Source of the DNA: Pseudomonadota bacterium
GTDB taxonomy: Bacteria > Desulfobacterota > Desulfobulbia > Desulfobulbales > Desulfurivibrionaceae
Direction of reading: 5' to 3'
Assembly: GCA_018830485.1 (NCBI GenBank)
Contig: JAHJRQ010000011.1
Location: 1-64,000, forward strand
DNA: 64,000 nt
The position numbers and the translations under genes were made by a program. The notes under the pieces are model-generated. The model saw only the letters and a list, made by a program, of their open reading frames with translations, was not told the DNA's origin and did not search any database. Positions 15,248-19,447 of the stretch are shown in pieces. How positions within the stretch are numbered: position 1 is the first letter of the stretch; each line of letters opens with the position of its first letter.

Positions 15248-15413
15248 TAGCAGGATGTTGAAAAAAGCCGTCCTGGCTTTTTTCAACCACGATCGGCCGG
15301 AAGTGAATTCCGGCCGATCTCACAATTTCACCGAGTTGGAACACGTTGAAATCGGCGATCCATCCCTGGATCGCACGCAGGGCGTCGAAAAACGAGTTTT
15401 TTAGCACCCTGCT
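15248..15413. repeat. Three-copy inverted-end element, copy A (with nested insert)
   Basis: Left end contains a perfect 13-bp hairpin (15257-15287, GTTGAAAAAAGCC arm); the right end (about 15359-15413) matches the left half of the other copies at 55566 and 58846. Compared with copy B, about 67 bp are inserted in the centre, carrying its own perfect hairpin (15294-15316) and flanked by CGATC on both sides. It fills the gap between the SRPBCC and chemoreceptor genes. Confidence 0.7.
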
Positions 15414-15497
15414 CGGCACAAGCAGGGAAATGCCGGCGGCGCGGGGGAGAAAGCCGCTGGAAGAATGGAATCTCCCGAGCCTGTGGCGGAACAACCG

Positions 15498-15531
15498 AAA
15501 AAAAATCCCTTGCCGCGAGGCAAGGGATTTT
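15498..15531 (-). terminator. Rho-independent terminator of the chemoreceptor gene
   Basis: A perfect 13-bp stem (15502-15514 with 15519-15531, tetraloop) is followed on the minus strand by eight Ts, 25 nt after the chemoreceptor stop codon. Confidence 0.9.
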
Positions 15532-18004: not shown

Positions 18005-18247
18005 CTACGCCTTCTTGATATAAAAAGTGAAAACCCCTTCATTTTCCTTGTTGCCCAAAAATTCATGGCCGCAGCGCGCACACCAGTTGGGGAGGTCATT
18101 TTTGGATCCGGGGTCGGTGCCGTGAACTTCCAGAATCTGGCCCGAACCGATGGACTCAATGGCCTTTTTGGTTTTGAGCAGCGGCATAGGGCAACACATG
18201 CCCTTCACATCAAGGGTCTGGTCCGGTTTAACGATTGTGAAATCCAT
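18005..18247 (-). CDS. TusA-family sulfur carrier protein
   Basis: An 80-residue TusA/SirA/YedF-like protein with the CPxP signature in DVKGMCCPMPLLKTKKAIE; the Cys would carry persulfide sulfur. The C-terminus has two further cysteines (LPNWCARCGHEF), absent from classic TusA, as in variants associated with sulfur-metabolising anaerobes. A GAGGAGG ribosome binding site precedes the ATG. It lies directly downstream of a dodecahaem cytochrome, separated by a perfect 16-bp hairpin, suggesting co-transcription and a link between sulfur transfer and electron transfer (inference). Confidence 0.85.
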   Translation of the reverse strand: MDFTIVKPDQTLDVKGMCCPMPLLKTKKAIESIGSGQILEVHGTDPGSKNDLPNWCARCGHEFLGNKENEGVFTFYIKKA

Positions 18248-18295
18248 GCATTCCTCCTCTGAAGATTGTAATAAAACCCCACTATTGGCAAGACT

Positions 18296-18334
18296 ACCCA
18301 TGCGGGGCATGTTTCGATCATGCCCCGCATGGGT
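18296..18334. promoter_or_regulatory. Perfect 16-bp hairpin between cytochrome and TusA genes
   Basis: ACCCATGCGGGGCATG (18296-18311) pairs perfectly with 18319-18334 across a TTTCGAT loop. It begins 7 nt after the cytochrome stop. No U-run follows on the minus strand, so it more likely stabilises the cytochrome mRNA 3' end or partially attenuates than fully terminates. Confidence 0.6.
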
Positions 18335-18340
18335 GACGAA

Positions 18341-19141
18341 TTATTTGTGCAGGTCATGGGCCGTCCCATGGCACTGACTGCACTGCGGGAAAGTCTGGTG
18401 CATGGCCGAGGCGTGCGGTTTTGCGCCATGGCAGTTCTGGCACTGCAGGATCATCCTGTGTTTCTCCTGATGACAGGTGGCGCATTCCATCTTGGCATGT
18501 TTGGCCGCGCTCTTTTTGAGTTTTTCATAGGCTGCGGCATGGCATCCCGCGCAATTCTTGGAGGGAATATCTCCCGGGTAGGTGACGTTCTTCGGCGAGT
18601 GGGCCTTGTGGCAGGTAAGGCAATCTTTCTGCGCCTGCCCTTCGGAATGGGGCGAATGACAGTCGGTGCAGTTGGGGATAAGGCCGTGCCGTTCCCGGTG
18701 GCAGGTGGAGCAGGCCACGTTGGTGTGCTTGCTGACCTCCTGCTGCAACTCGGTCATTTGCTTGCTATGGCAACTCAGGCACGGCTCGGTAATTCCCGAG
18801 GGAATCGTCACCACCAGCGGAGTATGCGGATTGCTGTGGCAGCCGGCACACCCTGGCAACTTGAAGTGGGGGGTGTCGGCATGGCAGGTACTGCATTTCG
18901 GGATGATATCCTTGGATTTGGGAGGATGGCTGACATGGCAGTCCACGCAGCTTATTTTTTCCTTGTGCGCTCCCCCTGCCTTGGCAATATCCAGGGGTGC
19001 CTGGTCGTGGCATTTTATGCAGTCTGCGGGAAGGAGTTCGCTTCCCGCCGCAATGGCCTGCGCCCATGCCGCCGTGGTCAGAAGCAGCCCCCCGGCAACT
19101 ATTCCCGCCCAATGTCGTCCTCGGTTTTTTGATCGCATCAT
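18341..19141 (-). CDS. Periplasmic dodecahaem c-type cytochrome
   Basis: After a signal peptide (GIVAGGLLLTTAAWAQAIAA) the 266-residue protein has twelve CxxCH haem motifs (CIKCH, CVDCH, CSTCH, CAGCH, CLSCH, CSTCH, CTDCH, CLTCH, CAGCH, CATCH, CQNCH, CSQCH), one per about 20 residues, and many extra His for distal ligation. This is the build of small periplasmic electron-wire cytochromes; the ExtA-type 12-haem cytochromes of Geobacter are a possible parallel, but I cannot confirm orthology. It is likely to shuttle electrons through the periplasm. An AGGGG site precedes the ATG, and TusA follows. Confidence 0.9.
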   Translation of the reverse strand: MMRSKNRGRHWAGIVAGGLLLTTAAWAQAIAAGSELLPADCIKCHDQAPLDIAKAGGAHKEKISCVDCHVSHPPKSKDIIPKCSTCHADTPHFKLPGCAGCHSNPHTPLVVTIPSGITEPCLSCHSKQMTELQQEVSKHTNVACSTCHRERHGLIPNCTDCHSPHSEGQAQKDCLTCHKAHSPKNVTYPGDIPSKNCAGCHAAAYEKLKKSAAKHAKMECATCHQEKHRMILQCQNCHGAKPHASAMHQTFPQCSQCHGTAHDLHK

Positions 19142-19447
19142 TTCTATGTGTGCCCCTTGAAAAAAAATTCAGTGTGATTGTTCCTGTCTCCGGAAACAAA
19201 ACCGCGATTCTCCCCCTGGCGTTCAGCAATTCCCATGCCATTGCAATCATCGGGGAGATTGTTCGCACCAACCCGCGTCAACTGCGGCTGTTGGCGGGAA
19301 ATGCTCCGCCAGCCGCCCGTGGGGGGGGAGTGCGGTCCATCAAAAAATGACCGGTCCAGTCAGAAACTGTTGAGCGGAGAAAAACGGAAGGCCGCGACAC
19401 GCGACAGATAAGGAAAAGGGGAAGGATCGGAGAATCCTTTGTTGCCT
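19142..19447. other. Intergenic region upstream of the dodecahaem cytochrome
   Basis: About 300 nt with no gene. It should contain the cytochrome promoter on the minus strand, but I see no convincing -35/-10 pair. Confidence 0.4.

Follow-up and report, generated by a model that had tools for sequence, protein, structure and literature searches.

A gene for a dodecahaem c-type cytochrome and a gene for a TusA-family sulfur carrier form a real, conserved, and lineage-specific unit, which is probably under the control of sigma-54. The parts are known; it is their combination that is new, and our literature searches found no published record of a cytochrome-TusA unit. The conserved signal lies upstream of the pair, and not in the striking hairpin that separates the two genes. 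Our preferred reading, which we consider likely but some way from settled, is that a sigma-54-controlled unit co-induces a periplasmic, electron-carrying cytochrome and a cytosolic TusA, probably for sulfur oxidation.

The window, by which we mean the whole 64-kb stretch of DNA that was analysed, is from contig C8 of a 2.89-Mb draft genome (G000). The features on which the argument depends are listed here:

18005-18247, minus strand: tusA paralogue (80 aa; CPMP motif with catalytic C19, plus C18, C56, and C59)
18296-18334, minus strand: perfect 16-bp intercistronic hairpin (loop of 7, no U-tract)
18341-19141, minus strand: dodecahaem c-type cytochrome gene (266 aa, 12 CXXCH motifs)
19225-19240, minus strand: sigma-54 (-24/-12) promoter TGGCATGGGAATTGCT, 99 nt upstream of the cytochrome start codon
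19340-19350, minus strand: candidate enhancer (UAS) site 2, TCATTTTTTGA, 20 bp from site 1
19360-19370, minus strand: candidate enhancer (UAS) site 1, ACAGTTTCTGA, a conserved upstream site

The cytochrome and the sulfur carrier

The cytochrome is the twelve-haem protein that the initial annotation had described, with the length, motif count, and position given above. It matches PF14537 (42.3 bits against a cut-off of 25), and its twelve CXXCH motifs are kept in all 30 of the orthologous loci that were fetched. An alignment of 29 sequences (A1, without row L022, which is near-identical to L021) contains exactly 24 invariant histidines, namely the 12 within the CXXCH motifs and 12 more at residues 59, 72, 92, 106, 139, 152, 165, 181, 215, 228, 243, and 262. 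All twelve haems are probably bis-His ligated. Since every haem has an invariant second histidine and no open catalytic site is apparent, we regard the protein as an electron carrier and not an enzyme; a catalytic role is unlikely.

The extra histidines follow the haem histidines at spacings of 14/3/5/4, 14/4/3/3, and 14/4/5/4 residues, the simplest reading of which would be three fused tetrahaem blocks. The earlier label “wire-type,” an interpretation on the part of the annotator, holds in the sense of an electron-transfer protein, to judge from the histidine count, but it does not necessarily imply a filament. The N-terminus resembles, by eye, a Sec-type signal peptide without a lipobox, and the protein would presumably be exported. 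A predicted structure was discarded (mean pLDDT of 35, from a model built on two sequences). The best match of the cytochrome profile to a solved structure is PDB 3ov0, at an E-value of 2.8e-7, although this match is weak, composition-prone, and split into two pieces. 3ov0 is GSU1996, which likewise carries 12 haems; its chain is longer (318 aa) than that of the window cytochrome.

Like ExtA of Geobacter sulfurreducens, as presented in the accessible text of PMC6148476, the window protein is a periplasmic-type dodecahaem c cytochrome. Unlike with ExtA, no outer-membrane porin or lipoprotein cytochromes were seen adjoining it: the open reading frames of the window, together with the Pfam results for seven neighbours, include no adjoining multihaem gene or porin match, and no ExtA-named family appears among the NCBIfam matches of the window proteins. 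With no porin gene seen beside the cytochrome in the window, an ExtA-type module is not supported.

Orthologues or close paralogues of the cytochrome occur in 51 of 97 relatives (E ≤ 1e-10), and a contig search with it matched a single locus, in Desulfobulbaceae bacterium UBA2273, the closest relative. Outside the clade with the pair, the cytochrome gene is on its own or, in several other families, adjoined by a second 12-haem gene. At one locus of the latter kind (L083; L080-L082 are similar), the 12-haem genes are followed by genes for a histidine kinase and a response regulator of the sigma-54 type, and a 10-haem protein and an NHL propeller protein are encoded nearby, the whole being a large multihaem cluster.

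We place the start of tusA at 18247 and not at 18310, because GAGGAGG is found just before the ATG at 18247; the 101-aa reading frame from 18310 begins within the hairpin and is unlikely to be the gene. The product matches the TusA family PF01206 (93.3 bits, cut-off 28.6), with the CPxP catalytic cysteine present as CPMP at residues 19-22. Against the NCBIfam TusA equivalog PRK00299 it scores 59.1 bits, below the cut-off of 78 bits. No signal peptide was seen in this TusA, which is presumably cytosolic.

The initial annotation had presented it as cysteine-rich, with two extra cysteines. Four cysteines (C18, C19, C56, and C59) are indeed present, but C56 is not “extra,” being found in 52 of the 54 related TusA rows; E. 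coli TusA (1dcj) also carries its equivalent in the alignment. C18 and C59 are rare (5/54 and 4/54 rows, respectively), and both are missing from the TusA of G001, though that genome has the cytochrome-tusA pair. They are not supported as a defining feature. The extra cysteines were rejected as a motif from the 54-row alignment, in which the cysteine-rich character of the window TusA reads as local variation.

The same genome encodes a second, housekeeping TusA on contig C13, which is 59% identical to the window protein. Its gene adjoins a YeeE/YedE-type transporter gene (Sulf_transp) and three small genes; no Pfam match was found for these three, which by position and size we take to be dsrEFH type II. 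The yeeE-tusA-dsrEFH type II arrangement is named YTD in the accessible text of PMC13293266 and PMC13047784. The window TusA has in common with the YTD cluster of Desulfobulbales, as those sources present it, the TusA family, the order, the CPMP motif, and the W-C cysteine, and the sulfur partners of the two are likely identical. Unlike the YTD tusA on C13, the window tusA has no adjoining yeeE or dsrEFH; it stands between the cytochrome gene and a gene for a chemoreceptor. A third type of TusA is encoded at L097, L100, and L103 (G003, G007, and G016). On one side of it is a gene for a PAS sigma-54 activator; on the other are genes encoding a NarJ-like chaperone and an iron-sulfur protein, probably those of a molybdenum oxidoreductase.

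Distribution and gene order of the pair

Co-oriented cytochrome and tusA genes occur in six genomes (G000, G001, G002, G004, G007, and G016), all from the window's genus, with 93-104 bp between them (93 bp in the window). The neighbourhood check therefore confirms that the pair is not unique to the window. In G003, tusA is near the cytochrome gene but convergent with it, beyond a terminator, and has a weak sigma-54-like site. At the 23 other cytochrome loci, the flanking 1.5 kb on each side contain no TusA, bearing in mind that some of these stretches end at contig ends.

Across the order, the cytochrome (E ≤ 1e-70) is found in 36 of 257 genomes, and TusA (E ≤ 1e-33) adjoins it in 7 of these 36. 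All seven belong to the window's genus, and in one the two genes are convergent. We consequently rejected the idea of an order-wide pair. A general Desulfobulbales module is likewise not supported: the cytochrome is widespread, but this genus alone has tusA beside it.

The cytochromes of the six pairs group in a single clade (support 100/97), as do the paired TusAs together with the unlinked TusA of G012 (support 100/99); the placement of the G003 TusA is poorly resolved, in an alignment of 83 columns. Around the pair, gene order varies. In G000, G007, and G016 the flanking genes are nfo and one for a chemoreceptor; in G001 a Crp-type regulator gene is found at one end and cooS at the other. 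In G002 and G004, tusA is followed by a small gene and a gene for a C39-type peptidase, and these two genomes differ from each other in front of the pair. The order and spacing of the pair are held through at least three such contexts. Values of dN/dS between 0.05 and 0.32 for both genes indicate purifying selection. Because the two genes are co-oriented, are kept together while their neighbours change, and have a common sigma-54 promoter, they very probably make up one transcription unit.

As a separate observation, a CooS-like gene (Prismane/CO dehydrogenase family) is found near the tusA cassette in G001, G002, G004, and G012 (L067, L068, L069, and L105), and a Crp-type regulator gene near the cassette in G001 and G004.

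Of the 17 genomes in the genus, 8 have the cytochrome together with a window-type TusA (defined as at least 75% identical), and the other 9 have neither. On a DsrAB tree covering 16 of the 17, this pattern needs just 2 changes, so co-occurrence is not an independent test and was rejected as independent evidence. G012 has both genes apart, with the cytochrome on contig C1 and tusA on contig C8.

The promoter region and the hairpin

In an alignment of the upstream regions, TGGCATGGGAATTGCT is identical in the six paired genomes and has a canonical form in G003 and G012. A sigma-54 site precedes the cytochrome gene in all eight members of the genus that have the cytochrome versus none of 22 other loci, with a background expectation of 0.013 sites per 300 nt. 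Upstream of the promoter by 100-130 bp, all eight genomes carry two 11-bp UAS-like sites that are 20-22 bp apart. The pattern of these sites has 11 matches in the 17 genomes of the genus, 7 of which are found before cytochrome-tusA or tusA; a reversed control gave 3. The -24/-12 element has the correct spacing, is conserved across genomes, and occurs in an organism with RpoN, which is encoded once in the window's own genome together with 20 strong activator ATPase domains.

In G012, the separated cytochrome and tusA genes each have their own sigma-54 promoter. The sequence upstream of tusA can be aligned with the promoters of the paired cytochromes, and the alignment extends to the first upstream site and, less perfectly, to the second. 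To judge from this alignment, one can recognise in it the promoter of the pair, with the cytochrome missing. The YTD tusA on C13, unlike the paired tusA, has no sigma-54 site that could be seen, and no element of this kind was seen for the YTD-type TusAs of the genus. In this check of TusA loci, L106 (G010b) yielded no TusA. Taken as a comparison of sequences, co-regulation of the cytochrome and tusA is well supported.

A restricted sigma-54 pattern matches four sites in the window's own genome, one of which is the promoter of the pair. Because this pattern was drawn up with the site already known, the other three are best treated as leads. They precede an 8-haem PF11783 cytochrome (L151, region of G000:C4:132370), a 5-haem cytochrome beside an activator gene (L153, region of G000:C17:16673), and, judged by eye, an Amt-like ammonium transporter; the two cytochromes possibly belong to one electron-transfer regulon. 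A looser matrix gives equally high scores in 0.5-3.5% of random 480-nt windows, so the strength of the case is in conservation and not in any single site. When this matrix was used to search for sigma-54 sites in other families, nothing convincing was found.

Cytochrome genes under sigma-54 and activators, as is probable for the pair, are described for ohcBAC of Desulfovibrio vulgaris (PMC4641369), and cytochrome genes are similarly tied to sigma-54 and activators in the RpoN regulon of G. sulfurreducens (PMC2725144). The window pair includes a sulfur carrier, whereas the accessible text of these two reports mentions none for their units.

The hairpin exists much as the initial annotation had reported it, perfect over 16 bp, with arms at 18296-18311 and 18319-18334, a loop of 7, and a position between the cytochrome gene and tusA. 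It is the longest perfect stem with a loop of 3-15 in the 64 kb (the next is 13 bp), and in 20 first-order Markov simulations the longest stem was at most 12 bp. The fold of the intergenic region has a z of -4.8, and 0 of 200 shuffles were equally stable. Among the other pairs, G016 and G007 have a similar strong stem and G001 has a stronger one of different sequence (z -8.0); no stable hairpin was found between the genes in G002 (z +0.5) or G004 (z +1.1). A strong hairpin in only four of six pairs led us to reject it as a conserved element, and its absence from the other two is at odds with the claim that it is a conserved setter of the expression ratio. As neither the hairpin nor the two rare cysteines are conserved across the paired genomes, they do not explain the pair. 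The hairpin may affect the mRNA where it is present; it does not define the unit.

The hairpin was rejected as an intrinsic terminator, since there is no T-run after the stem and the terminator scan does not list it, and as a dispersed repeat, since six other one-mismatch matches to an arm come without a second arm. Ten unpaired cytochrome loci, out of 24, were inspected at their 3' ends: all ten have a stable stem, followed in eight by a run of at least five Ts. Elsewhere in the window, three more perfect stems of 12-13 bp cluster at 15257-15531, between the chemoreceptor gene and small genes. Sequence around CCCATGCGGGGCATAAACTCC is shared by G000:C5:14215, C9:104442, and C14:13892 (L129, L131, and L133); two of these places are alike over ~100 bp, and this is a small repeat.

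Proposed role and competing explanations

Under the preferred reading, a putative enhancer-binding activator, probably acting at the two upstream sites, would open the sigma-54 promoter on sensing a signal, and this one promoter would drive both the cytochrome and tusA. The exported cytochrome would carry or store electrons in the periplasm without catalysis, and the window TusA would carry sulfane sulfur on C19 in the cytosol. Induction would raise the delivery of sulfur from TusA to DsrE and DsrC and then to a reversed DsrAB; periplasmic electron-carrying capacity would be raised together with it, for the electrons released and presumably for whichever acceptor takes them up. Because the two proteins would be in different compartments they could not meet, and shared induction would be what ties them.

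In the genus, the sulfite reductase gene dsrA is matched in 17 of 17 genomes and above the cut-off in 16. In cable bacteria, transfer from TusA to DsrEFH type II and on to DsrC has been obtained in vitro, according to the accessible text of PMC13293266, and reversed use of Dsr is reported for Desulfurivibrio in that of PMC12545173. Homology, the published TusA transfer, and Desulfurivibrio Dsr would together place the pair in a sulfur-oxidation pathway by analogy. The earlier proposal of a sulfur-oxidation or extracellular electron-transfer module is plausible but unproven.

It is conceivable that the genes form an operon of convenience, with a sigma-54 tusA and a cytochrome gene joined by rearrangement in one lineage, kept together by short linkage, and sharing no pathway. 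The pairing is restricted to one clade of one genus, few evolutionary events are needed, the products belong to different compartments, and G012 has the genes apart, all of which fit such an origin. Set against this, the two genes of the pair remain neighbours in at least three contexts with different flanks, and the separated genes of G012 both retain sigma-54 promoters; we consider an operon of convenience rather unlikely. Far more doubtful is an explanation in which the hairpin is the functional core and, by terminating transcription in part or by stabilising the 3' end, sets the cytochrome:TusA ratio. The perfect 16-bp stem, its z of -4.8, and the strong hairpins of G007, G016, and G001 (the last of different sequence) speak for it, but it lacks a U-tract, and G002 and G004, which have no stable hairpin, indicate that the pair does not need one. 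In the four genomes where a hairpin is present, it may nonetheless have an effect.

The unit might, alternatively, be a general respiratory or stress switch (for metal reduction, CO-linked redox, or sulfide stress), with TusA serving biosynthesis, such as tRNA thiolation, and not dissimilatory oxidation. Several observations are compatible with this: the other restricted sigma-54 sites precede multihaem cytochromes and the Amt-like transporter; the CooS-like gene is near the pair in G001, G002, and G004, and the Crp-type regulator in G001 and G004; and RpoN is linked to cytochromes in Geobacter, as the accessible text of PMC2725144 has it. However, a housekeeping TusA is already present in the YTD cluster, so biosynthetic need alone calls for no second copy behind an inducible promoter, and we judge this explanation, too, to be rather unlikely.

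We therefore return to the co-induced unit, probably for sulfur oxidation, as the preferred reading. A bolder extension of it, which we offer as speculation more apt to fail than to hold, is that a dedicated sigma-54 regulon of the genus turns on a periplasmic dodecahaem wire in step with an additional, inducible sulfur carrier. The reversed dissimilatory sulfite reductase would then be supplied only if electrons could be wired to a sink in the periplasm or outside the cell, and the regulon would act as a genetic switch, with reduction of sulfate or sulfur in one position and sulfur oxidation with export of electrons in the other.

The conserved sigma-54 promoter that the cytochrome and the extra sulfur carrier have in common provides a concrete regulator and two reporter genes. 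The unit hints that the movement of electrons and the handling of sulfur are switched on together, and it bears on how sulfate-reducer-like Desulfobulbales come to run the Dsr pathway backwards.
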